From Mucilaginibacter sp. 14171R-50 (GTDB lineage Bacteria > Bacteroidota > Bacteroidia > Sphingobacteriales > Sphingobacteriaceae), in NCBI RefSeq assembly GCF_010093045.1, contig NZ_CP048115.1, positions 4,154,001-4,218,000 on the forward strand: 64,000 bases of DNA. Direction: 5' to 3'. How positions within the stretch are numbered: the first letter of the stretch is position 1; every line of letters begins with the position of its first letter. Shown here one piece after another: positions 45,602 to 59,115 of the stretch. The notes under the pieces are model-generated. The model had not been told where the DNA came from. It made no database searches and was given only the letters and a program-made list of their open reading frames with translations. A program made the position numbers and the translations under genes.

Positions 45602-46876
45602 ATGCAGATAGAGAAACATTTAATTGATGAGCACAACCATCATTTAGCCAAAAAACATCAACGCAATTTTGAGCACATAGCTGCCGACATAAATAATGTC
45701 GACAGTATTTTAAAAAAACTTGTCGCTTTTAACGTGGCCATCCCGAGCTGGGCTTTAGGCACCGGCGGTACACGTTTCGGCAGGTTTAGCGGTGGCGGCG
45801 AGCCGCGCAGCCTAGAAGAAAAAATTGAAGATGTTGGCGTTATCCATGCACTGAACAGATCAAGCAATTCCATTTCGCTACATATTCCCTGGGATATCCC
45901 TGATAATGCCACGTCGATAAAACAACTGGCTTCGCAATTAGGCCTGCACTTTGATGCGGTAAATTCAAACACCTTCCAGGACCAGGCTAACGCAACGCAT
46001 AGCTATAAATACGGCTCGCTACACCATGTGGATAAGCTCGTGAGGGCACAAGCCATTGAGCATAACATCCAGGTGATCAATTATGGTAAGGAACTTGGTT
46101 CGAAGGCGTTATCAGTTTGGTTATCTGACGGTTCAAACTTTCCTGGTCAATTGAATTTCAGGCAGGCATTTCAACGCACGCATGAGAGCTTACAGGAAAT
46201 ATACAACGCGCTGCCAAACGACTGGAAGCTATGGATAGAATATAAGCCATTCGAACCTAATTTTTATTCTACCACAATCGGCGATTGGGGGCAATCCCTG
46301 CTGCTGGCTAACAAACTTGGTGATAAAGCTGCTACCCTGGTTGATCTCGGTCACCATTTACAAGGCACCAACATCGAGCAAATAGTTTCCCTGTTATTGA
46401 TGGAAGGTAAACTTGCAGGGTTCCATTTTAACGACTCTAAATATGGCGATGACGACCTTACCGTTGGCAGTATTAACCCCTACCAGTTGTTTTTAATATT
46501 TAATGAACTGGTAGAAGGTATGGACGCCCGCGGCATGGTCCACGCTACAGATATTGGGTGGATGATAGATGCATCGCACAATGTTAAAGACCCGATGGAA
46601 GATCTTTTACAATCAGTACAGGCTATTAAAATAGCTTACGCGCAGGCTTTACTGATAGATACAAAGGCTTTAAAGGCGGCGCAGCAAGACAACGAAGTAG
46701 CGCTTGCCCAGGAGATTTTGCAACAGGCCTATCGGACAGATGTACGGCCGCTGATAGCCGAAGCCTGCAGGCAGGCAGGCGGCTCTCTGGACCCCATCGG
46801 TGCTTACCGGAAACTTGAGGTGAGGAATAAGTTAATAAAAGAACGCGGCTTAAAAACAGTAGCCACCGGTTTATAA
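45602..46876 (+). CDS. rhaI: L-rhamnose isomerase, RhaI type
   Basis: A 424-residue cytosolic enzyme of the xylose-isomerase-like TIM-barrel superfamily, of the RhaI kind (Pseudomonas stutzeri L-RhI-like) rather than E. coli RhaA. Metal-ligand stretches are visible: WIEYKPFEPNFYSTT (Glu), LVDLGHH (Asp and His), GFHFNDSKYGDDDL (His and Asp) and HATDIGWMID (Asp). It interconverts L-rhamnose and L-rhamnulose. It stands between rhaD and rhaK in the operon, and is 11 bases before the kinase gene. Confidence 0.92.
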   Translation: MQIEKHLIDEHNHHLAKKHQRNFEHIAADINNVDSILKKLVAFNVAIPSWALGTGGTRFGRFSGGGEPRSLEEKIEDVGVIHALNRSSNSISLHIPWDIPDNATSIKQLASQLGLHFDAVNSNTFQDQANATHSYKYGSLHHVDKLVRAQAIEHNIQVINYGKELGSKALSVWLSDGSNFPGQLNFRQAFQRTHESLQEIYNALPNDWKLWIEYKPFEPNFYSTTIGDWGQSLLLANKLGDKAATLVDLGHHLQGTNIEQIVSLLLMEGKLAGFHFNDSKYGDDDLTVGSINPYQLFLIFNELVEGMDARGMVHATDIGWMIDASHNVKDPMEDLLQSVQAIKIAYAQALLIDTKALKAAQQDNEVALAQEILQQAYRTDVRPLIAEACRQAGGSLDPIGAYRKLEVRNKLIKERGLKTVATGL

Positions 46877-46887
46877 ACGAAAGCGAT

Positions 46888-48270
46888 ATGAGTGCGATAC
46901 CCGTTATAGCCATATTTGATGTTGGGAAGACGAATAAAAAGTTATTCCTGTTTGACGAGAATTACCAGATAGTTTTTGAAAAAACAGCCCGCTTTTTAGA
47001 GACAGTGGATGAGGATGGCTATCCATGCGAAAATATTGAGAGCTTAAGGCTTTCGGTGTTCGATTCGCTGAGCGAGGTTTTCCGCATGAGTGAGTTTAAG
47101 GTAAAGGCAGTGAATTTTTCGGCCTATGGTGCAAGCTTTATTTATGTTGGCGAGGATGGCAAACCACTTACGCCCCTGTACAACTATCTAAAAAGTTACC
47201 CGGAAGAATTGAGCGAGCAATTTTATGCAAAATATGGAGGTAAAGACAAAGTGAGCGTGCAAACCGCATCGCCGGTGCTGGGCAGCTTAAATTCCGGGCT
47301 GCAGCTCTACCGTTTAAAGTACGAACAACCTGAAGTTTTTAAAAAAATAAAATACGCACTGCATTTACCCCAATACCTGAGCTATTTGCTTACCGGAAAA
47401 GCTTGTTCTGACCTCACCAGTATTGGCTGCCACACCTGCCTTTGGGATTTCGAACAAAACCGCTATCATGAATGGACGCAACACGAGGGCATCGCGCTAA
47501 AGTTGCCCCCTATATTACCTGCTAACAAGGTGATGCCTGCGTTATTCCCCGGCAATAACTACAAGGTGGGAATTGGCCTGCATGATAGTTCAGCGGCGCT
47601 TATCCCATACCTGGTTAATTTTCATGAGCCGTTTATACTCATCAGTACCGGTACCTGGTGCATCAGCTTAAATCCTTTTAACCAGCAGCCCTTAACAGCC
47701 AATGAATTGAAAGACGACTGTTTGAGCTACCTGCAATACCAGGGCCAGCCGGTAAAGGCATCAAGGTTGTTTTCGGGGTACGAGCACGAGCAGCAGGTTA
47801 AAAAAATTGCAGCACACTTCCATACCGATATTATCAAATACCGGAACGTTATATTTGAGCCGGAAGTTATCAGTCACCTGAAAGCCAAAAAAAATTCGGT
47901 GACACAAAATGCCGATGCCAAAACATCCGCGTTTGAGAAAAGGGACCTTTCTGAATTTCATAATGATATAGAAGCTTATCATCAACTTGTGCTCGACCTT
48001 ATAAACCAACAGGTTTACGCCACGCAACTGGTATTAAAAGGCACCCCGGTAAAACGCATATTTGTTGACGGCGGCTTTAGCAAAAACAGTGTATTTATGC
48101 ATTTGCTTGCTTCAGCTTTCCCGGCAATTGAAGTATTCTCGGCTTCCATGGCGCAGGCTACTGCAGTAGGCGCGGCGTTGGCTATTCATAAAGAATGGAA
48201 CCGGAAACCTATACCAAATGATATTATCCAATTGAAATATTATTCTTCCAGTCAAACCATTAGTATATGA
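46888..48270 (+). CDS. rhaK: FGGY-family rhamnulokinase
   Basis: A 460-residue FGGY sugar kinase. The N-terminus carries the phosphate-binding loop FDVGKTNKK (about residues 10-18); the second half has LISTGTWCISL and the adenosine-site stretch FVDGGFSKNSVF. Context in the rha operon identifies the substrate as L-rhamnulose, which it phosphorylates at C1 with ATP. It differs from E. coli RhaB in sequence but occupies the same step; similar divergent kinases are found in Bacteroidota rha operons. It is followed after 94 bases by the GH78 gene. Confidence 0.88.
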   Translation: MSAIPVIAIFDVGKTNKKLFLFDENYQIVFEKTARFLETVDEDGYPCENIESLRLSVFDSLSEVFRMSEFKVKAVNFSAYGASFIYVGEDGKPLTPLYNYLKSYPEELSEQFYAKYGGKDKVSVQTASPVLGSLNSGLQLYRLKYEQPEVFKKIKYALHLPQYLSYLLTGKACSDLTSIGCHTCLWDFEQNRYHEWTQHEGIALKLPPILPANKVMPALFPGNNYKVGIGLHDSSAALIPYLVNFHEPFILISTGTWCISLNPFNQQPLTANELKDDCLSYLQYQGQPVKASRLFSGYEHEQQVKKIAAHFHTDIIKYRNVIFEPEVISHLKAKKNSVTQNADAKTSAFEKRDLSEFHNDIEAYHQLVLDLINQQVYATQLVLKGTPVKRIFVDGGFSKNSVFMHLLASAFPAIEVFSASMAQATAVGAALAIHKEWNRKPIPNDIIQLKYYSSSQTISI

Positions 48271-48364
48271 ATGTTGGCTTGTTTATACCTTGTAGACCAG
48301 TTTTACCCGGGCGCCGCAATTGCAGCCTATATTTTTAATCAGTTCAACCTTAGATTAATTTAAA

Positions 48365-51040
48365 ATGATCAGAAACCTACTTACTTTATCGTTATGCCTT
48401 GTTTTAGGATCAAATTGTTTTGCGCAATTAAGCGCGGAACGGCTGCTTACCGAAAACCAGGCCGATCCAATCAGCATTGATGCTAAAACACCGCGCTTTA
48501 GCTGGCAAATGGAGGCAGGGAATACAAAAAATGTATTGCAATCGGCTTATCAGATCAGGGTGTATACGGCGGATGATAATAAACTGATCTGGAATAGCAA
48601 TAAGGTTGCTGATAGTCAATCGATATACGTGCCATATAAAGGCCCTGCATTAACATCGCGCACAGCTTATGTCTGGCAGGTTATGATCTGGGATAATAAA
48701 GGTCATGCCTCGCCATGGAGCAAAAAAGCTACGTGGCGCATGGGAATGTTATCTCCTACCGATTGGAAAGCAATGTGGATAGGTCCCGGTTATGCAGGCG
48801 ATATGGTAGATAAACCAAGCTCCATGTTTCGTAAAGGCATCACCCTTAAAAAAACCGTAAAAAGCGCTTTTGCATATATAACCGCCCACGGCTTATACGA
48901 AGCGCAAATAAACGGCGCAAAAATTGGCGATGCCTACTTAACCCCTGGCTGGACAAGCTATCATAAACGCCTTCAATATCAGGTTTATGATGTTACAAAA
49001 ATGCTGGTCAAAGGTGAAAATGCCATTGGTGCAAAGGTAGGCAGTGGTTGGTACCGGAGCACACTGGTATCAAGCCCTAACCACTATGGGAAAGATGTAG
49101 GCCTGTTGTTCCAACTGGAAGTCGCCTATACCGACGGCACACATGAAACTATCGTATCTGACGGGAGCTGGAAATCTGCAACGGGCGAGCTCCGGTACGC
49201 CGAGATATATAACGGCGCCACAATAGATGCCCGAATGGAACAAAAAGATTGGGCAAAGCCCGGTTTTGATGACAGCAGGTGGACTGCCGTAAAGGTGCAG
49301 GATTATGGTAAAGAGAACTTTATAGCAACTTATAACGAGCCGGTAAAAAAACACGAAACTTTCAGAGCACTTAAAGTTATAACAACCCCCAAAGGAGAAA
49401 AGGTTATAGACTTTGGGCAAAACCTGGTGGGTTGGGTACGGTTAAACGCCAACGGCAAAGCCGGCGATTCGATAAAAATATCCCACACGGAGGTGTTAGA
49501 TAAGGCGGGGAACTTTTACACCGAAAACCTTAGGGGCGCAAAAGCGCAAAACGTATATATCCTTAAAGGCGGCGGCAATGAATATTTTGAACCCCAGTTT
49601 ACCTGGCAGGGATTCAGATACATTAAGGTTGAAGGCGTTAGGGGCGATTTAAACCTTGATAACTTTACCGCTGTGGCCGTTTATTCGGATATGGAACCTA
49701 CAGGGGTGTTTACCACATCAAACCCGATGCTGAACCAGTTGCAGCATAATATACAATGGGGTCAAAAAGGCAATTTCCTGGATGTGCCCACAGATTGCCC
49801 GCAACGTGACGAACGCCTAGGCTGGACAGGCGACGCGCAGGTGTTTTCGCGCACGGCATCGTTTAACATGAACGTGCACAACTTTTTTACTAAATGGTTA
49901 AAAGATGTAGCTGCCGACCAAAACAGCGATGGCAGTGTGCCGCATATTATTCCTGATGTATTTGATGGCCAAAACGGAGGTGCTACGGGTTGGAGCGATG
50001 TTGCAACCGTTGTGCCATGGAACATGTACCTGGCCTATGGGGATAAAGAATTATTACAAAACCAATATCCAAACATGAAGGCATGGGTTGATTACATGCA
50101 GAAACATTCGAAAAACAACCTTTGGAACACTGGCTGGCACTTTGGCGACTGGCTGTTTTATAGCGTAGAGAATGATCTTGATGGTATGTCGGCCATAACC
50201 AGCAAGTATTTAATAGCGCAGTGCTTTTACGCATACTCAACCCAGTTACTGATAAATGCGGCCACTGCATTAGGCAATAAAGCGGATGCAGACCACTACA
50301 CCATTTTATTACAACAAATAAAAGCGGCGTATTTAAACGAGTACGTAACGCCAAATGGCCTTATCTCCTCGGATACGCAAACCGCTTATACGCTCGCCTT
50401 AGCGTTTGATATGCTGCCCGATAATTTACGTGAACAGGCCGCCGGAAGGCTGGCGGCTAACATTGCCCGGTATGATAACCATTTAACCACCGGCTTTTTG
50501 GGTACCCCCTATCTATGCCATGCCTTAAGCCGCTTTGGTTATGCCGATGTTGCTTATAAACTATTGCTGCAGGATACTTACCCATCGTGGTTATACCCTA
50601 TAAAAATGGGCGCTACTACTATTTGGGAAAGATGGGACGGCATAAAACCTGATGGTAGTTTCGAAACCCCAACCATGAATTCCTACAACCATTACGCTTA
50701 TGGCGCCATTGGCGATTGGATGTACCGGGTTACATCGGGCATTGATACGGACCCCTATGCCCCCGGCTATAAAAAGATAATTATCAAGCCAACCGTTGGT
50801 GGTAAATTAACCTATGCTAATGCAAGTTATCAAACACCTTATGGCAAACTAGTATCTAACTGGAAAATAGAGGGCGATACGTTTAACCTTGATGTTGAAG
50901 TACCGGCCAATACCACCGCTACCGTTTATGTGCCCGATTACAACGAAAAAGAAGGTTATAGAACAGAACACATAGGTTCGGGCAGTTACCATTTTATCAG
51001 CAAATCATTTATCAATCCGGTTAATCACACTAAGCCATAA
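48365..51040 (+). CDS. GH78 alpha-L-rhamnosidase
   Basis: An 891-residue secreted protein (signal about 1-20, cut near CFA|Q). Order: N-terminal fibronectin-like domain (RLLTENQADPISIDAKTPRF), rhamnosidase N domain (YEAQINGAKIGDAYLTPGWT), concanavalin-like domain, catalytic (alpha/alpha)6 barrel and C-terminal beta-sandwich. The canonical motif DCPQRDERLGWTGDAQ is at about residues 476-491 and holds the general-acid Glu; the general-base Glu is in TTIWERWDG at about 755. Length is standard for the family. It removes terminal alpha-L-rhamnose and is the last gene of the rha operon. A hairpin follows at 51081-51104. Confidence 0.94.
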   Translation: MIRNLLTLSLCLVLGSNCFAQLSAERLLTENQADPISIDAKTPRFSWQMEAGNTKNVLQSAYQIRVYTADDNKLIWNSNKVADSQSIYVPYKGPALTSRTAYVWQVMIWDNKGHASPWSKKATWRMGMLSPTDWKAMWIGPGYAGDMVDKPSSMFRKGITLKKTVKSAFAYITAHGLYEAQINGAKIGDAYLTPGWTSYHKRLQYQVYDVTKMLVKGENAIGAKVGSGWYRSTLVSSPNHYGKDVGLLFQLEVAYTDGTHETIVSDGSWKSATGELRYAEIYNGATIDARMEQKDWAKPGFDDSRWTAVKVQDYGKENFIATYNEPVKKHETFRALKVITTPKGEKVIDFGQNLVGWVRLNANGKAGDSIKISHTEVLDKAGNFYTENLRGAKAQNVYILKGGGNEYFEPQFTWQGFRYIKVEGVRGDLNLDNFTAVAVYSDMEPTGVFTTSNPMLNQLQHNIQWGQKGNFLDVPTDCPQRDERLGWTGDAQVFSRTASFNMNVHNFFTKWLKDVAADQNSDGSVPHIIPDVFDGQNGGATGWSDVATVVPWNMYLAYGDKELLQNQYPNMKAWVDYMQKHSKNNLWNTGWHFGDWLFYSVENDLDGMSAITSKYLIAQCFYAYSTQLLINAATALGNKADADHYTILLQQIKAAYLNEYVTPNGLISSDTQTAYTLALAFDMLPDNLREQAAGRLAANIARYDNHLTTGFLGTPYLCHALSRFGYADVAYKLLLQDTYPSWLYPIKMGATTIWERWDGIKPDGSFETPTMNSYNHYAYGAIGDWMYRVTSGIDTDPYAPGYKKIIIKPTVGGKLTYANASYQTPYGKLVSNWKIEGDTFNLDVEVPANTTATVYVPDYNEKEGYRTEHIGSGSYHFISKSFINPVNHTKP

Positions 51041-51547: not shown

Positions 51548-53329
51548 ATGTTTACATTAGGGATCAACGCGGCCTTTCATGACTCGGCCGCCTGTATAGT
51601 AAAAGACGGCATTTTACTTGCTGCAACTGAAGAAGAGCGTTTTACCCATTTCAAGCACGGCAAGCGGCCGGTACCATTTTCAACCTGGGAGCTTCCTTTT
51701 CACGCAATAGATTATTGTTTAAAGGTTGCCGGCATACATATCAATGATATAGACCATATTGCTTACTCGTTTGACCCATACCTGATCATCGGCGAAAAAT
51801 ATCGCGGCAAAGAAACTATCGAAATACCTTTTGAGGAAGGCCGCTCACATTTGAACGATGAATTTGCCAACCCCTGGGAACCTTTGTTCCTGTCTTCTAT
51901 CATTAACGCCCCCGGCCAGTTAAGGGATGGCTGGCCCCACCACTTGCAGCAGCGTTTTATTGGCTGTAACATTGGCCGCGAAAAATGGCATTTTGTTGAG
52001 CACCACATAGCACACGCGGCCAGCGCGTTCAACTGCTCGCCATTCCGTACTGCTGCAGTGATGACGGTAGACGGGCGGGGCGAGCAAGCCACCACTACCT
52101 ATAATATTGGCCGCGGCCAGCAGTTGGACAGGATAGGCCAGGTAAACATGCCGCATTCGTTAGGGTTGCTTTATGAAGATGTAACCACTCATCTTGGCTT
52201 CCTGCATTCGTCAGACGAGTATAAAGTAATGGCGCTGGCATCATACGGTAAGCCCGAGTTTGCAAACGATTTCAGGGAGATCATACATATCGGCAGTAAC
52301 GGCCAGTATACCATAAACAATCAGAACCTGGTGGAACGGTTTGGCCCTAAAAGGCTGCGCCACGAAGAGTTTACAGCCTTCCATTTCAACATTGCGCATT
52401 CGATGCAGTTGGTACTGGAAGAAGCTATGCTTGAACTTACCGGCTGGCTACAGCAGGAAACCGGCGAAGAAAACCTTTGCCTTGCCGGTGGCGTAGCCCT
52501 CAATTGTGTGGCTAATGCCCGCATACGCGATAAAGGTTTCTTTAAAAATATTTGGGTGCAGCCTGCCTCAGGCGATGATGGCACGGCTCTGGGTGCCGCG
52601 CTGTGGGTGGATGCGCAGGAGCGCAAAAGCGATGAAAAAACCTTTGTGATGGACCATTGCTACTGGGGCCCACAATATACCGATGTTGAAATAGAAAAAC
52701 AGCTTAAGCTTTGGAAGGTGCCTTACCGCAAGCTGGATAACATCGCTGAAGAAACCGCCGATATACTGGCACAAGATAAGATCATTGGGTGGTACCAGGG
52801 CAGGATGGAGTTTGGGCCGCGGGCCTTGGGCAGCCGTTCTATTCTTGCATCGCCTATTAACCCGGCTATGCAGGCCAGGCTTAACGAAGTTAAGGACCGT
52901 GAAGATTTCAGGCCGGTGGCTCCGGTTGTGCTGCAGGAAAAAGCCCACGAGTGGTTTAACAATGCCGAGTATTCACCTTTTATGCTATTTATTTATGATG
53001 TAAAAGAAGATAAGGCCGATAAAATACCTGCAGTACGCCATACCGATGGCACGGCCCGCATCCAAACCATTAACGAGCAACAGCATAAAGATTATTACGA
53101 TTTGCTTAAAGCCTTTGAACGCAAAACCGGCGTGCCGGTGTTGGTAAACACGTCGTTCAACACGCTGGGCAAGCCTATTGTATGCACCCCGCGCGATGCA
53201 GTAGAATGCTTTTGGTCGTCGCCCTTTGATGCATTAATTATCGGATCATTTGTAATTGAAAAAGAAAGTGGAACTAATAACAGTATCTATAGTAATTCCA
53301 ACATATCGGCGGCCGAAACTGTTAACTAA
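51548..53329 (+). CDS. O-carbamoyltransferase (NodU/CmcH/TobZ family)
   Basis: A 593-residue enzyme. The N-terminal Kae1-like part begins LGINAAFHDSAA, with EERFTHFKH and the metal-binding EHHIAHAASAF (His-x-x-x-His) and VDGRGEQATTT (Asp); LAGGVALNCVAN closes it. The C-terminal YrdC-like part shows GWYQGRMEFGPRALGSRSI and FRPVAPVV. In TobZ these parts first make carbamoyl-AMP from carbamoyl phosphate and ATP and then transfer the carbamoyl to a hydroxyl of a sugar or antibiotic. Here the acceptor is probably a glycan made by the adjacent glycosyltransferases. The last 20-25 residues are not family-like and are encoded in the overlap with the GT2 gene. Confidence 0.92.
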   Translation: MFTLGINAAFHDSAACIVKDGILLAATEEERFTHFKHGKRPVPFSTWELPFHAIDYCLKVAGIHINDIDHIAYSFDPYLIIGEKYRGKETIEIPFEEGRSHLNDEFANPWEPLFLSSIINAPGQLRDGWPHHLQQRFIGCNIGREKWHFVEHHIAHAASAFNCSPFRTAAVMTVDGRGEQATTTYNIGRGQQLDRIGQVNMPHSLGLLYEDVTTHLGFLHSSDEYKVMALASYGKPEFANDFREIIHIGSNGQYTINNQNLVERFGPKRLRHEEFTAFHFNIAHSMQLVLEEAMLELTGWLQQETGEENLCLAGGVALNCVANARIRDKGFFKNIWVQPASGDDGTALGAALWVDAQERKSDEKTFVMDHCYWGPQYTDVEIEKQLKLWKVPYRKLDNIAEETADILAQDKIIGWYQGRMEFGPRALGSRSILASPINPAMQARLNEVKDREDFRPVAPVVLQEKAHEWFNNAEYSPFMLFIYDVKEDKADKIPAVRHTDGTARIQTINEQQHKDYYDLLKAFERKTGVPVLVNTSFNTLGKPIVCTPRDAVECFWSSPFDALIIGSFVIEKESGTNNSIYSNSNISAAETVN

Positions 53330-54242
53330 CTGCCTGCAGGCGCTGCTGCAGCAAAAATTTGATAAGTGGCTTTACGAGATAATTGTAGTAAGCGATGGAC
53401 CAGACGAGCAAACAAAACAGGTAGTTAATAAATGGGCGGCGTACGAGTATCCGCAGATGCGTTACCTGCCGTTAACTGTAAAAAAGGGCCCTGCAGCGGC
53501 CCGTAATTATGGCTGGTTAAACGCCCGCGGCAAAATTATCGCCTTTACTGATGACGATTGCACGCCCGACCCACATTGGCTGCAGGAACTTGTCAAGCAC
53601 TGTAACCCCAACCAGGATGTTGCAATTACCGGCAGAACAATTGTGCCCATTGGTAAAAACCCCACAGATTATGAACAGAACACCGCGCATTTGCAAACCG
53701 CAGATTTTATAACCGCTAACTGCGCCTGCACAAAAAATGCCCTGATAAAGGCCGGGGGCTTCGACGAGCAGTTTAGTATGGCCTGGCGCGAAGACAGCGA
53801 CCTGGAGTTTAAGCTTATTGATAATAATATCCCTATAAAAAAAGTAGAAAGCGCCATTGTGGTGCATCCGGTGCGGAGCCCGGCATGGGGCGTAAGTATT
53901 AAGGAGCAAAAGAAAACCATGTACAACGCGCTGCTTTATAAAAAGCACCCAACATTATATCGCAAAAAGATAAGCCAGACAACCCCGGTATTATATTATT
54001 GCATTATAACGGCTTTTATAATGATGCTGGCGGGGATAGTAAGCGGGCAGTCGGCTGTAACGCTGGTTGGTTGTGCAGGCTGGCTTGGTTTAACAGCCTA
54101 TTTTATTTTTAAACGGCTTTATAAAACCAGGCTCTCCGTAAATCATATCACCGAAATGGTTATCACATCTTTTATCATCCCATTCGTATCGGTATTTTGG
54201 CAATGGTATGGTGCATTTAAGTTCCGCGTATTATTTATTTAG
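53268..54242 (+). CDS. GT2 glycosyltransferase with C-terminal membrane helices
   Basis: A 324-residue GT-A-fold enzyme. VSIVIPTYRRP opens the fold, EIIVVSDGPDE holds the nucleotide-binding Asp, FTDDDCTPDPHW is the D-x-D metal motif and MAWREDSDLEFKL the acceptor-site acidic motif. Two hydrophobic helices (about residues 245-280) and a short third precede the C-terminus, suggesting an inner-membrane enzyme with a cytosolic active site. No ATG precedes the fold: GTG 53268 or TTG 53256 must serve, both inside the carbamoyltransferase gene (62-74 bases of overlap in another frame). Donor and acceptor are unknown. Confidence 0.88.
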   Translation: MELITVSIVIPTYRRPKLLTNCLQALLQQKFDKWLYEIIVVSDGPDEQTKQVVNKWAAYEYPQMRYLPLTVKKGPAAARNYGWLNARGKIIAFTDDDCTPDPHWLQELVKHCNPNQDVAITGRTIVPIGKNPTDYEQNTAHLQTADFITANCACTKNALIKAGGFDEQFSMAWREDSDLEFKLIDNNIPIKKVESAIVVHPVRSPAWGVSIKEQKKTMYNALLYKKHPTLYRKKISQTTPVLYYCIITAFIMMLAGIVSGQSAVTLVGCAGWLGLTAYFIFKRLYKTRLSVNHITEMVITSFIIPFVSVFWQWYGAFKFRVLFI

Positions 54243-54243
54243 A

Positions 54244-55239
54244 ATGATGAAATTACCAGCTTCCCAGATCAGAAAGATAACAATTTTCAGGGCCTTACAG
54301 TTAGGCGATATGCTTTGTGCCATACCGGCTGTCCGGGCCCTGCGCTATGCATACCCTGATGCCGAGATAACTCTGATAGGTTTGCCCTGGGCAAGATCGC
54401 TTACTGAAAGATTCAGTAATTATTTCGATAAGTTCATATCCTTTCCCGGCTATCCCGGTTTGCCCGAGCAAGAATTAAACCCTGCTGCCTTTATCGCATT
54501 TCTTGATGATGTGCAAAAGATACAGTTCGATCTCGCACTACAAATGCAGGGTAACGGCTCTGTAATCAACCCGATGGTTGAACTTTTTGGGGCTGCTTTC
54601 ACCGCCGGTTATTCCACAGAAGGACATTACGCGCCGGATAACGGCTTATTTATGCCCTATCCGGATCATGGGCATGAAATAGACAGGCACCTGGCACTCA
54701 TGGATTTTTTGGGCATTCCGTTACAGGGGAACGATATGGAATATCCCCTTACGACAAATGATTACGACTCCCTCGACCAGCTTAACCTGGGTATCGAACC
54801 AAAAAATTATGTGTGCATACACCCTGGGTCGCGCGGTGCATGGCGGCAATGGCCCGTAAAATATTTTGCGGCGCTGGCCGATTATTGCATCGAGCAGGGT
54901 TATAAGGCAGTACTTACAGGCACAAGGGACGAATCAGACATTGTAGATTCAGTTATCAGCCATATGCGTTACGAACCTATAAACACTGCCGGCAAAACAT
55001 CTATGGGCGCAGTGGGTGCACTCATAGAGAATGCAGCTATGCTCATTTCAAATTGCACGGGGGTATCGCATATCGCATCAGCATTTAAAACACCAAGTAT
55101 TGTTATTAGTATGGACGGCGAACCGCAGCGATGGGGGCCTTTAGACACCCGTGTACATCGGACCATCAACTGGCTTCAAACACCCGATTTTCATTTGGTA
55201 TTCCGGGAAACGGTTGAGTTTGTGACACTGGTGAGTTAA
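54244..55239 (+). CDS. GT9 glycosyltransferase (heptosyltransferase family)
   Basis: A 331-residue protein of the ADP-heptose:LPS heptosyltransferase family. RALQLGDMLCAIPAVRAL is the family N-terminus; the second domain has VCIHPGSRGAWRQWP, VLTGTRDE and ISNCTGVSHIASAF, the nucleotide-sugar site. It starts one base after the GT2 stop (ATG 54244 or 54247), which points to translational coupling. The family transfers heptoses or other sugars to lipid-linked glycans in the cytosol. It is the last of the plus-strand arm and overlaps, tail to tail, the next GT9 gene by 74 bases. Confidence 0.88.
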   Translation: MMKLPASQIRKITIFRALQLGDMLCAIPAVRALRYAYPDAEITLIGLPWARSLTERFSNYFDKFISFPGYPGLPEQELNPAAFIAFLDDVQKIQFDLALQMQGNGSVINPMVELFGAAFTAGYSTEGHYAPDNGLFMPYPDHGHEIDRHLALMDFLGIPLQGNDMEYPLTTNDYDSLDQLNLGIEPKNYVCIHPGSRGAWRQWPVKYFAALADYCIEQGYKAVLTGTRDESDIVDSVISHMRYEPINTAGKTSMGAVGALIENAAMLISNCTGVSHIASAFKTPSIVISMDGEPQRWGPLDTRVHRTINWLQTPDFHLVFRETVEFVTLVS

Positions 55240-56296
55240 GCAATTGGGTAACAGCCTCAACAATATCGTTTGGAGCCGGGTGCTTAACGGATTTGTTGTA
55301 AAGCATTGTATTTACCCAGGCAATAACCTGATTTTTGCTGCGCAATTGTTCGGGCACCGGAAACTGCAGTACTTTGTGGGGGACACTCCATGGCGTATGC
55401 TGCGGATTAGTTTGTGCATATAGCACAACTACAGGCGTGCCAACAGCAGCAGCTATGTGTACCGTACCTGTATTAACAGAAATTAACAGAGGTGATCTTT
55501 TAACAAGACAGATAAACTCCGAAAGCGTGAACATACCAGCGGCGGAAAAACTACCCGCCCCAATGCGAGCTTCCAGTTCGTCGGTTAATTGCCGCTCTGC
55601 CTCTGAGCCTGTCAGGATCAACTGGTAACCCTGCTCAATTAATAGCTGCCCTGCTGCTGCCCACCCTTCAACGGGGTATTCCCGCTTTAATTCACTTACA
55701 CCTGCATGCAGCAACAGAAAAGGCTTTTCAAGGTCTGCCCCTATTTTTTTTAATTTGCCGGGAATGGCAGGCCACAACGCCTCATCAGCATTGAGATTAA
55801 GTGCCTCATGTTGCGGGTACGCGCCAACAGTTGCTACCAGGTCAAGGTCGCGCCGTACCTGGTGTTTAATTTCGTGGTAAGGTTCAATATCAGGTACCCA
55901 ATTATTAATGAGTTGATACGGGTTTTCGCGGCAATAGGACAATATTTGCGGCACCCCAGCTAAATAGGCCAGCATTGCTGTTGGCACCGGGTTTTGGCTA
56001 TAAACTGTAAATATAACCGCAGCATCAAAGTTGTATTGCTTAATGGCAGCTACAACTTTGTTAAAACTTTCGGGGCCTGGAGCTGCGGCCGTTTTAACCC
56101 ATGGCAGGTCAAAGATGATGGCGTCATCAATTTCGGGCATATGTTTTATGATACCTTTTGCCATTGATGAGGTCAATACTGTTATTTTTGCCCCAAAACT
56201 TTCTTTTAAAGCACGGATAGCCGCGCCCGTCATGATCAGGTCGCCCATATTATCCGGGCGGATGCAAAGTATATTTTTACAGCCCTGCCAGTTCAT
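55166..56296 (-). CDS. GT9 glycosyltransferase (heptosyltransferase family), second copy
   Basis: A 376-residue GT9 enzyme. ILCIRPDNMGDLIMTGAAIR is the N-terminal signature; LLLHAGVSELKREYP, LILTGSEAE and LLISVNTGTVHIAAAVGTPVV form the donor-binding domain. It is only distantly similar to the GT9 on the opposite strand, so it is probably not a recent duplication. Its start overlaps the GmhB-like gene by 20 bases, implying coupling in the minus-strand arm (GT4, GT4, GmhB, GT9). The pairing with a heptose-bisphosphate phosphatase suggests a heptose donor. The last 25 residues are poorly conserved and overlap the opposite gene. Confidence 0.87.
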   Translation of the reverse strand: MNWQGCKNILCIRPDNMGDLIMTGAAIRALKESFGAKITVLTSSMAKGIIKHMPEIDDAIIFDLPWVKTAAAPGPESFNKVVAAIKQYNFDAAVIFTVYSQNPVPTAMLAYLAGVPQILSYCRENPYQLINNWVPDIEPYHEIKHQVRRDLDLVATVGAYPQHEALNLNADEALWPAIPGKLKKIGADLEKPFLLLHAGVSELKREYPVEGWAAAGQLLIEQGYQLILTGSEAERQLTDELEARIGAGSFSAAGMFTLSEFICLVKRSPLLISVNTGTVHIAAAVGTPVVVLYAQTNPQHTPWSVPHKVLQFPVPEQLRSKNQVIAWVNTMLYNKSVKHPAPNDIVEAVTQLLNSPVSQTQPFPGIPNENRVFEAS

Positions 56297-56855
56297 GTTC
56301 GTTATTTAATAGCAACAAGTTTGCGGCCTGGTTAATGGTTTGGCACACGATAGTTGGTTTACGGTACGGCCCTTCTATCCACTCTGTTTCGTTACCATTG
56401 TCGATTAAGACAGTATTACAGCCGGCCCTGTTGCCGGCCTCCACGTCGTTTAAAATATCGCCTATCATCCACGAATCGTTTAAGCTTATCCGATGATCAG
56501 CCGCCGCCCTCAGCAGCATGCCGGGCGCAGGCTTACGGCAATCGCATTCCTTGTCATATCCCGGCACGCTACCCTGAGGATGGTGGGGGCAGTAATAAAA
56601 CCCGTCTAACTTTAAATTATTGATAGTAAACAGTTCTTCCATGCGGTTTGCCACGGCCAGCAATTTATCCTCAGCGAAGTATCCCCGCGCCACGCCCGAC
56701 TGATTTGATATGATGATGAGCTTAAACCCCTCATACTGCAGCTTTTGCAGCCCTTCTGTTACCTTATCTTCCAATGTGATTTTTTCAGGGTCTACATTGT
56801 AAGGGATATCGGGTATCAGAGTACCGTCCTTATCAAAAAAAATTGCCTTGTTCAT
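56277..56855 (-). CDS. gmhB: GmhB-like HAD phosphatase (heptose 1,7-bisphosphate phosphatase)
   Basis: A 192-residue HAD-IIIA enzyme. FFDKDGT places the nucleophile Asp8 and acid/base Asp10; ISNQSG is HAD motif II and GDILNDVEAG motif IV. The zinc site typical of GmhB/HisB is CPHHP with CDCRKP. GmhB removes the C7 phosphate of D-glycero-manno-heptose 1,7-bisphosphate on the path to ADP- or GDP-heptose. Together with two GT9 enzymes this implies a heptose-containing product, although GmhA and HldE genes are not in the window. It sits 2 bases after the GT4 gene. Confidence 0.87.
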   Translation of the reverse strand: MNKAIFFDKDGTLIPDIPYNVDPEKITLEDKVTEGLQKLQYEGFKLIIISNQSGVARGYFAEDKLLAVANRMEELFTINNLKLDGFYYCPHHPQGSVPGYDKECDCRKPAPGMLLRAAADHRISLNDSWMIGDILNDVEAGNRAGCNTVLIDNGNETEWIEGPYRKPTIVCQTINQAANLLLLNNEHELAGL

Positions 56856-56857
56856 GG

Positions 56858-58141
56858 TTAAGCTGCCTGGTATTCCCCGGTTATCAGTTCGGCTTCGCCG
56901 GCGGCCGGGATAAGCGCATCATACAAGCTGATAACCCTTTTTGCAACCTTTGCCCACGTAAAATGGGTATTTACCCGGTATATCGCATTTTCGCCCATAC
57001 GGCTTAACAGTTCGCCATTATCAATTACCTTGCTGATCTTATCCGCCAGTATTTCGGGGTCATGCGGGTTTACCAATAACCCGGTTTCGCCGTCGGCAAT
57101 GCTGTATTTTATCCCGCCCACATTGGCACCTATTACCGGTGTGCCGCAAGCCATCGCTTCTAAGGGTGTTATTCCAAACGGTTCGTACCAGGGGGTGGTG
57201 ATGAACAGATCGGCGGCTGAATAGTAAAATTTAAGCAGGTGGCGGTCTTTGCGGCCGGTAAATATGATAGAATCCACTACATTATGTTCACGCGCTACGC
57301 GCATTAACCTCGCAAATTCAGGGCAGCATTCTTCAGTCAAAATTTCGCTCTCGCCGCCCACTATTAAAAGTTTAACCGGCTTTTCAAGGCCTTTTAAATT
57401 GCTTAAAGCGCGTATAACATTATCAACACCTTTACGCGGCACCATACGCCCAAGTTGCAGTATAATATGTTCATTTTGCGGTAAGCCCAATATTTTGCGG
57501 GCAGTTGACTTGCCAACAGGGTAAAACTCTTTTGAACTGAAACCGCACGGGATTATGCTGACCTTACTTTCGGGTGCATTATAATATTGTATCAGATCGT
57601 CCATATCCTGAGGGCACTCCGCAATAATATGGCAGGCCTCCTGTACGGCCTGTTCCTCAATCAGCAAGCGCTCAGCAGGGAACTTGTCGGCTTGCGCCTG
57701 GTGTATTTTACGCACATGGCCCAATGCATGAAAAGTTACCACAAATGGTATATCCAGCTCTTTTTTAATACCCATAGCCACATACGCCGACATAAAAAAG
57801 TTGGCATGTATCAAAGAGTAATGCAGGTGCCGGTTTATGATAAACGCCACCATATTACCTTTAAATTCATCCATATATTGCAGCAGTTCCTCTTTTATAA
57901 CGTTTGCTGCAGGGCCTGCCTGTATATTTATTACACGCACTCCCGGAAGCCAGTCAATCACATCCTCAAGTTCCTGATTGTCTTTACGGGTAAATACATC
58001 AACCAGGTACCCCTGTGCTGCAAGGTGCCTGGCCAACTGTGCAACGTACACATTTTGGCCGCCGGTGTCAACGCCGCCAAGGCTTGCCAATGGTGATGCA
58101 TGTTCGCTTATCAGCGCAACTCTTTTTGTTTGATATTTCAT
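56858..58141 (-). CDS. GT4 glycosyltransferase, sucrose-phosphate-synthase-like
   Basis: A 427-residue GT-B enzyme. LGGVDTGGQNVYVAQLARHL near the N-terminus is the acceptor-domain signature of the sucrose synthase/SPS-like branch of GT4. VVTFHALGHVRK, LQLGRMVPRKGVDNVI and YEPFGITPLEAMACGTPVIG (the E-x7-E motif at about residues 320-330) form the donor site. It uses a nucleotide sugar with retention. Sucrose synthesis is unlikely in this setting; membership in the heptose/carbamoyl cluster argues for a glycan role. It is separated by 2 bases from both neighbours, so it lies within the minus-strand operon. Confidence 0.88.
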   Translation of the reverse strand: MKYQTKRVALISEHASPLASLGGVDTGGQNVYVAQLARHLAAQGYLVDVFTRKDNQELEDVIDWLPGVRVINIQAGPAANVIKEELLQYMDEFKGNMVAFIINRHLHYSLIHANFFMSAYVAMGIKKELDIPFVVTFHALGHVRKIHQAQADKFPAERLLIEEQAVQEACHIIAECPQDMDDLIQYYNAPESKVSIIPCGFSSKEFYPVGKSTARKILGLPQNEHIILQLGRMVPRKGVDNVIRALSNLKGLEKPVKLLIVGGESEILTEECCPEFARLMRVAREHNVVDSIIFTGRKDRHLLKFYYSAADLFITTPWYEPFGITPLEAMACGTPVIGANVGGIKYSIADGETGLLVNPHDPEILADKISKVIDNGELLSRMGENAIYRVNTHFTWAKVAKRVISLYDALIPAAGEAELITGEYQAA

Positions 58142-58143
58142 AT

Positions 58144-59115
58144 TTATACTATTTGGGCGGCAGTGGTTTGGCTTTTCGCGGTGACTTCGTTAAAAAGGGT
58201 CTCCCAATCGTTGGTAAAACGCCCTATACTAAAGCGCTGTAAAGCTACTTCCCTGCCTCTGGTGCCAATTTCGCGGGCCAGTTGCGGCTCGCTGATCAAT
58301 AATTTCATTTTGTCTATCAGGTATTCTACATCGGTGTGTATAAACCCTGACACGCCATTTTCGATAACTGCAGATAACTCTGTTGTGGCAAGCCCTACTA
58401 CGGGTATGCCCATCATCATGGCTTCGCATATAGCAAGGCCAAGGCTGGTGTATCTTATCGGATTAAAAAAGAAACGGCAACGGCTTTGAAATTTTGGCAA
58501 CTGCGGATGCAGCACCTCCCCCAGTCCAAGTTCGCCTGTGCCCATGCCTACCAGATCAAGCGGTACATGTTTACGGGCGTGCATAAATATATCGTGCCCC
58601 AGCAAACGGCCGCGGGCGGGTAAATTATTAATTACTACAATTCCGCGGTCAAGGTCGCCCTGGTATATAGCGCCAGGGTCGGTCACCCCATGCTCGATAA
58701 CACGGGTTGGCGTTTTGTTACTATCCCACATCAAGCGGTTAAAATGTGTAACATGTACCAACACCATGTTTTCATCATCCACAACATGTTTGGTATCGGT
58801 AGGGTGTTGGCGCGGCGGGTCATGTTCAATATAAATTCGAGGCAGCTCGCGCTGCTCCGCAGTCAATATCTCGTACTGATCAACCAGGTAGTTATTGTTG
58901 GTTTGATACACAACGCAATCAAACTCGTGGTACTTCACCTCTTCGGCAGGTATTTCTTTCACATTGTCACCAAAAGGGAAGGTCTCTCCCCTTCCATAAT
59001 AACCTTCGGTCTTTTCGGGCTTTGTTGGTATGTATATGTCGTAATTGCCCTGCGACAGATAAAAAAGGTAGCTGCCATGTATATGCCAGGTAAATACTTT
59101 CAGTTTGTTTTGCAT
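58144..59115 (-). CDS. GT4-like glycosyltransferase
   Basis: A 323-residue GT-B type enzyme that heads the minus-strand arm. The N-terminal part KVFTWHIHGSYLFYLSQGNY is characteristic of glycosyltransferases that travel with carbamoyltransferase genes. The donor domain has FFFNPIRYTSLGLAICEAMM with the second Glu of the E-x7-E pattern, and GIPVVGLATTELS. The first Glu of the pattern is replaced here (NPIRYTSLG). ATG 59115 directly precedes the fold; ATG 59136 would add seven residues. Product and acceptor unknown. Confidence 0.82.
   Translation of the reverse strand: MQNKLKVFTWHIHGSYLFYLSQGNYDIYIPTKPEKTEGYYGRGETFPFGDNVKEIPAEEVKYHEFDCVVYQTNNNYLVDQYEILTAEQRELPRIYIEHDPPRQHPTDTKHVVDDENMVLVHVTHFNRLMWDSNKTPTRVIEHGVTDPGAIYQGDLDRGIVVINNLPARGRLLGHDIFMHARKHVPLDLVGMGTGELGLGEVLHPQLPKFQSRCRFFFNPIRYTSLGLAICEAMMMGIPVVGLATTELSAVIENGVSGFIHTDVEYLIDKMKLLISEPQLAREIGTRGREVALQRFSIGRFTNDWETLFNEVTAKSQTTAAQIV

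Follow-up and report, generated by a model that had tools for sequence, protein, structure and literature searches.

Gene content of the cluster

Seven open reading frames (ORFs) at positions 51548-59115 of a 64,000-nucleotide stretch of Mucilaginibacter sp. 14171R-50 DNA (the window; positions 4154001-4218000 of a one-contig 4.5 Mb genome) encode a carbamoyltransferase (CT), glycosyltransferases of families GT2, GT4 and GT9, and a phosphatase of the HAD type (Table 1). They form two converging arms, CT-GT2-GT9a on the forward strand and GT4b-GT4a-HAD-GT9b on the reverse strand; the nearest CTs were those of Mucilaginibacter. On the comparisons described below, the cluster is probably the form taken in Bacteroidota by a widespread cwg-type cassette, known from Streptomyces, for a carbamoylated, heptose-containing envelope glycan.

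Table 1. Genes of the cluster, in window coordinates
Gene	Position	Strand	Description	Family or structural match
CT	51548..53329	+	sugar O-carbamoyltransferase (TobZ/NodU family); opens left arm	Carbam_trans_N/_C
GT2	53256..54242	+	TTG start; glycosyltransferase, hydrophobic C-terminus	Glycos_transf_2
GT9a	54244..55239	+	heptosyltransferase-type; ORF opens 54208, ATG 54244	Glyco_transf_9
GT9b	55166..56296	-	heptosyltransferase-type; closes right arm	Glyco_transf_9, heptsyl_trn_II
HAD	56277..56855	-	GmhB-like heptose 1,7-bisphosphate 7-phosphatase	3l8e/2gmw matches
GT4a	56858..58141	-	glycosyltransferase resembling sucrose-phosphate synthase, MshA	Glycos_transf_1
GT4b	58144..59115	-	short two-domain GT4; opens right arm; ORF opens 59136, ATG 59115	Pfam, AlphaFold

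An earlier reading of the window from its letters (the sequence-only reading) had described the same families in two tight converging arms, and the Pfam families and spacing agree with it in substance. It had given overlaps or gaps of at most 2 bases within each arm. The arms are close-packed, with gaps of 1 nucleotide at GT2/GT9a (counting from the ATG at 54244) and of 2 nucleotides at both HAD/GT4a and GT4a/GT4b; CT and GT2 overlap by 74 nucleotides with the TTG start (62 with a GTG start) and GT9b and HAD by 20. The arms meet tail to tail, where GT9a and GT9b overlap by 74 nucleotides.

The earlier assignment of CT as a sugar O-carbamoyltransferase held: both domains scored over their cut-offs (Carbam_trans_N, 212.7 bits; Carbam_trans_C, 243.6 bits), the nearest solved structures were 9s2t (decarbamoylnovobiocin carbamoyltransferase), GdmN and TobZ, and CT aligned to 9s2t across the family motifs, whose columns are conserved in 97% or more of 88 rows. 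The protein thus shares a two-domain family and its motifs with TobZ, NovN, GdmN and NodU, enzymes that act on antibiotics or Nod factors; it differs from them in falling into an orthologous group of its own, tied to heptose glycan genes. GT2 matched Glycos_transf_2 (108.2 bits). A strongly hydrophobic C-terminal segment, present in 74 of 82 GT2 rows, suggests a membrane acceptor and makes it doubtful that the set has no membrane component.

GT9a (Glyco_transf_9, 90.5 bits) has the PDB relatives 3tov and 1psw (ADP-heptose lipopolysaccharide heptosyltransferase II), and 1psw is also the nearest solved structure to GT9b (Glyco_transf_9, 85.6 bits; heptsyl_trn_II, 110.4 bits, short of the 134.6 cut-off). 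In both, the N-terminal GD motif retains its Asp, a residue that is catalytic in WaaC. Nearest to HAD were the D,D-heptose 1,7-bisphosphate phosphatases 3l8e and 2gmw (~1e-33), from E. coli GmhB; residues C89, H91, C104, C106, R107 and K108, which include the zinc-loop pattern C-x-H ... C-x-C, are conserved in 97% or more of 71 rows. GT4a (Glycos_transf_1, 149.3 bits) matched 6kih at 3e-75 and MshA (3c48) at 7e-66. Its K83 and R158, which 97% or more of 76 rows retain, match residues with which MshA binds the acceptor phosphate; of MshA's four phosphate contacts, two are altered in the alignment. Pfam matches to GT4b were confined to its C-terminal part (43.6 bits to PF13692). Its AlphaFold model (mean predicted local distance difference test score 90.9) aligned at Z ~25 with several GT4 enzymes across ~290 residues and, as modelled, GT4b is a complete GT-B enzyme; the fold told no donor, as BshA, 7qsg, sucrose-phosphate synthase, TarM and other GT4 structures tied. 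A Pfam scan of the seven proteins found no member of the heptose-kinase family.

Conservation of the set and its heptose genes

Among 395 genomes of the phylum, 164 held some match to CT; in seven, the window genome included, identity was at least 63%, and the other matches listed reached at most 48%. As judged by sequence, the window CT belongs to a separate orthologous group, apart from other carbamoyltransferases. An alignment of seven CTs was the query for a CT-only scan of species genomes, and the best 80 loci, with CT orthologues 58-93% identical, became our test loci (8.6-21.8 kb, some ending at a contig end), in which gene presence was scored by tblastn (E 1e-8). All seven genes were present in 59 of the 80, six in 6, five in 5, four in 5, three in 1 and two in 4. 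By gene, GT2 was found in 76 loci, GT4a in 71, GT4b, GT9a and GT9b in 70 each, and HAD in 68, and the loci with all seven were spread over several phyla. Around non-orthologous Bacteroidota CTs, by comparison, GT2, GT9a, GT9b, HAD and GT4b were found in 0 of 23 control stretches (10.8-16 kb); two of the 23 had a GT4a match, at 23-25% identity. Conservation across genomes and phyla, which the sequence-only reading had proposed as a check, was thus observed in 59 of 80 CT-selected loci, against none of the controls with GT2, GT9, HAD or GT4b.

CT and GT2 were same-strand neighbours less than 400 bp apart in 71 of the 76 loci holding both, and one co-directional run of all seven occurred in 17 of 29 Pseudomonadota loci. 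Across 121 genomes of the family, orthologues of CT and GT4b were both present in 28, CT only in 1, GT4b only in 7 and neither in 85 (Fisher p 8e-20, kinship ignored), at cut-offs (64% identity or more for CT, 300 bits or more for GT4b) that were chosen after the gap was visible; a genome with a 27-residue CT fragment was scored as CT-less. Several of the 28 carried CT and GT4b far apart or on separate contigs. Within the genus, CT was present in 6 of 13 genomes, so that the cassette is patchy. A CT tree set the group apart as a single clade from four outgroup rows, and its labels clustered according to phylum; of the 84 inner branches, 25 are weak. Horizontal transfer was considered as a reading of this tree, which decides neither for nor against it. 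No CT relatives were found in viral contigs, and the other cassette genes were not seen in the stretch around a Gemmatirosa CT (41%).

Plasmid copies were encountered as well. Nine Burkholderiales plasmids or megaplasmids (H1-H9) encode a CT 59-62% identical to that of the window; in the four Burkholderiales plasmids that were read, the annotated cassette is accompanied by PIG-L, ABC, extra glycosyltransferase and UDP-glucuronate decarboxylase-like genes. Beside another Burkholderiales cassette lies an 891-residue ABC exporter (L094:3547-6219, reverse strand) with a C-terminal response-regulator receiver domain, a fusion checked in one protein. Among the 80 loci, an ABC homologue, in some cases weak, was found in 26 and an MFS gene near 12.

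The route to ADP-heptose consists of GmhA, HldE and GmhB. A gene of the HldE type (PfkB and CTP_transf domains) was found in 16 of the 80 loci, adjoining GT9b on the same strand in all 16; an SIS protein of the GmhA type was found in 10, adjoining HAD in 8 of the 8 loci with both. All three types (HldE, SIS/GmhA and HAD/GmhB) occurred jointly in 8 of the 80. Because GmhA, HldE and GmhB types share some orthologous loci, heptose is well supported, and better founded than in the sequence-only reading, which had only the GmhB-like and GT9 genes to argue from. SIS/GmhA and HldE are absent from the window cluster itself; ~190 kb from it, the window genome carries HldA, GmhA and HldC-like genes together with a further GT9 (C1:4405.9-4409.2k; L129:7938-11215). 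In relatives, an SDR gene and HAD (each at 45% or more) shared 14 loci and were adjacent in 13 of them. SIS and SDR tend to alternate in the slot between HAD and GT4a (for example in L060, L075 and L162-L164), both being present in 3 of the 80 loci, as if SDR in that slot marked another kind of heptose or another way of supplying it.

Relatives without CT were examined in eight stretches of ~16 kb (L162-L169, two of them from genome G396), drawn from all seven family genomes with GT4b only. Four (L162, L163, L164 and L167) carry GT9b-HldE-HAD-(SIS or SDR)-GT4a-GT4b but neither CT nor GT2 in the stretch, and all of these except L167 also have GT9a; L169 carries GT9b-HAD-SIS-GT4a and a 42% GT4b; L165, L166 and L168 represent another variant, GT4b-SDR-HldE with different glycosyltransferases. 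G396 holds two distinct versions of the heptose cassette (L169 and L165). From these arrangements the wider core looks to be GT4b-GT4a-(SIS or SDR)-HAD-(HldE)-GT9b plus GT9a, with CT and GT2 as an accessory pair, and because the heptose genes of four relatives are not accompanied by CT and GT2 within the stretch, carbamoylation looks optional. The seven genes had earlier been proposed to act as one unit; they are conserved together as a set, but the unit would be better drawn as a wider heptose core to which CT and GT2 are accessory.

Correspondence to the cwg operon, and flanking genes

A cluster on a Streptomyces plasmid (L136) comprises 12 genes in the order epimerase-CT-GT2-HAD-GT9-GT-GT-SIS-rfaE2-GT9-GT-GT. 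All seven window proteins paired with L136 proteins as best matches both ways, in a comparison within the two gene sets; identities were 46.5% for CT, 41.7% for GT4a, 37% for HAD, 35.4% for GT4b and 30% for GT2. This arrangement resembles that of cwg, described as a 12-gene operon of S. coelicolor for a predicted cell wall glycan; the operon is induced by vancomycin and depends in part on sigma-E (PMC6767563). Within SCO6179-6190, cwgB, cwgC, cwgE, cwgG and cwgJ are listed as transferases, cwgD as a dehydratase, cwgH as a phosphoheptose isomerase and cwgI as a bifunctional synthase/transferase (PMC5839063); cwgE is elsewhere given as a putative heptosyl transferase (PMC5882110), and cwgA as activated by salt (PMC13011467). 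These eight cwg genes, as published there, fit the L136 order by position, and by position cwgB would be CT.

The two systems differ in that the window has two converging arms whereas L136 is one co-directional run, and in that an epimerase, SIS, HldE and two extra glycosyltransferases are found in L136 only. The window host has LpxC; control by sigma-E is reported, in the text available, for S. coelicolor alone. Neither the product of cwg nor a Gram-negative counterpart was found in the open-licence PMC literature, as far as its accessible text extends (including PMC5839063, PMC8005017, PMC5882110, PMC6767563, PMC13011467, PMC3123327 and PMC3899966). The sequence-only reading had called the pathway undescribed, which was not fully right, the cwg-type Streptomyces cluster with its seven of seven matches being a described counterpart. 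As far as we have seen, the cassette would be a variant of a described, biochemically unsolved system.

To the left of the cluster (45602-51040) lie two ORFs resembling an isomerase and a kinase (unscanned) and a GH78 alpha-L-rhamnosidase (scanned), which suggests rhamnose use beside the cluster; its right flank is a cation-efflux gene. None of these flanking genes was counted in the set. The ORF list and Pfam scan revealed no exporter within the window's cluster. Catalase, ferritin-like, hemerythrin or ANTAR/STAS genes adjoin some annotated copies of the cassette, and none was noticed beside the window copy; these uncounted occurrences were not taken as evidence, and the idea that the cassette regularly lies in a stress island was set aside. 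A long inverted repeat, possibly an operator, lies upstream of GT4b in Mucilaginibacter relatives (L048-L051 and L053) and was not noticed in the window.

A proposed pathway and its alternatives

From gene content and its conservation we infer donors, an order of steps, an acceptor and a location for the product, as well as a role in stress and the use of ADP-heptose by the GT9 enzymes. ADP-heptose would be made by GmhA, an HldA or HldE kinase, GmhB, and an HldC or HldE adenylyltransferase; in the window genome the GmhB-like phosphatase would come from the cassette, and HldA, GmhA and the HldC-like protein from elsewhere. The two GT9 enzymes would add heptose, further sugars would come from GT4a, GT4b and a membrane-attached GT2, and CT would O-carbamoylate a single sugar, probably the residue on which its partner GT2 works. 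What results would be a short envelope glycan (a glycolipid or a wall-linked oligosaccharide) rather than, in general, the core of lipopolysaccharide (LPS), and may be made under envelope or environmental stress. More tentatively, we entertain a single ancient or widely transferred LPS-independent pathway for heptose glycans in monoderms and diderms, with GT4b-GT4a-GmhA-GmhB-HldE-GT9b/GT9a as its core, CT and GT2 as a plug-in for carbamoylation, and cwg as the only member so far noticed in the literature searched.

Several observations weigh against a cwg-type heptose glycan cassette. HldE is not in 64, and SIS not in 70, of the 80 stretches; GmhB models scored HAD below their curated cut-offs (146.5 against 149.6 bits and 151.9 against 178 bits), and another GmhB-like gene lies at 4320822 in the window genome. 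The GT9 pairings with L136 are of low identity (GT9a-J, 25-26%; GT9b-E, 25.7%). S. coelicolor itself was likened through published gene names, with L136 as the stand-in for its proteins, and the 'dehydratase' printed for cwgD in the available text is a loose fit to HAD. Another Streptomyces plasmid has a shorter cluster, in which HAD and both GT9 genes are not annotated. In the class of Dictyobacter, a long CT match of at least 70% was found in 10 of 47 genomes and a fragment in one more; of six loci from this class only one is full (L172, all seven with SIS and HldE), L174 holding six genes (no HAD), L170 five, L175 four on a short contig, L171 three and L173 CT and GT2 only, so that two hold little besides CT and GT2. 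No stress genes were noticed beside the window copy, and alignments of 14 Mucilaginibacter-type loci showed no common promoter motif for the two arms. Finally, the LpxC-negative status of two carriers, Dictyobacter (G505, locus L073) and a metagenome-assembled genome of Herpetosiphonaceae (G506, locus L075), both Chloroflexota, rests on searches without a match in genomes for which completeness figures are lacking.

These two carriers bear on whether the cluster instead extends or decorates an LPS or lipooligosaccharide core, in the manner of WapO, which we consider unlikely. LpxC was present in all three of the other carrier genomes searched (the window genome, Cupriavidus and Pedobacter), the sixth record being a Streptomyces plasmid only, with no genome, and the GT9 proteins are related to heptosyltransferase II. 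The Pseudomonas core cluster of WapO (PA5005) likewise has a carbamoyltransferase alongside heptosyltransferases and a carbamoyl group on heptose; the available text of its description presents a carbamoylated core heptose, with WapO thought to act on heptose II (PMC8005017). That likeness is to a description; the window's seven genes differ in including no heptose kinase, and in belonging to a cassette found also in genomes where LpxC searches gave no match. The cassettes of both such carriers include HldE and HAD, and that of L073 also SIS. Because LpxC-negative carriers and a Streptomyces plasmid carry the cassette, LPS is not its general product, and the earlier suggestion of a decoration of an existing structure does not hold for LPS as a general function. 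Within the Bacteroidota, the cassette could have been adapted to LPS.

Two further readings concern the sugar and its fate. A diffusible carbamoylated heptoside, a secondary metabolite or protective solute that GT4a would build on a sugar phosphate before export, seems rather improbable. Its best arguments are that GT4a is nearest to sucrose-phosphate synthase and MshA and keeps K83 and R158, that the solved relatives of CT tailor antibiotics, to go by their names, and that transporter genes lie near some copies (MFS near 12 loci, ABC homologues in 26 of 80); against these stand the hydrophobic GT2 C-terminus in 74 of 82 rows, the change in GT4a of two among four MshA phosphate contacts, and a window cluster of which an exporter is not part. 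An ordinary heptose-free surface glycan, with some other sugar bisphosphate as the substrate of HAD and other donors for the GT9 enzymes, appears very unlikely. GT9 enzymes are not all heptosyltransferases, and the missed GmhB cut-offs, with HldE missing from the stretch in 64 of 80 loci, would be in keeping with such a glycan; against it stand the GmhA type in 10 and the HldE type in 16 of the 80 loci, the latter adjoining GT9b each time.

The carbamoylated, heptose-containing envelope glycan that we favor would bear on a system cited since 2002, whose product is unnamed in the accessible text of the literature searched. Gram-negative soil bacteria and LpxC-negative Chloroflexota that carry the cassette, with or without the carbamoyl pair, offer natural knock-outs, and simple hosts for a search for the glycan. 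ADP-heptose is usually regarded as a hallmark of LPS synthesis in Gram-negative bacteria; finding the glycan would show ADP-heptose serving a conserved envelope glycan outside LPS. If this is true, the LPS-independent heptose glycan would constitute a class of envelope-stress glycan.

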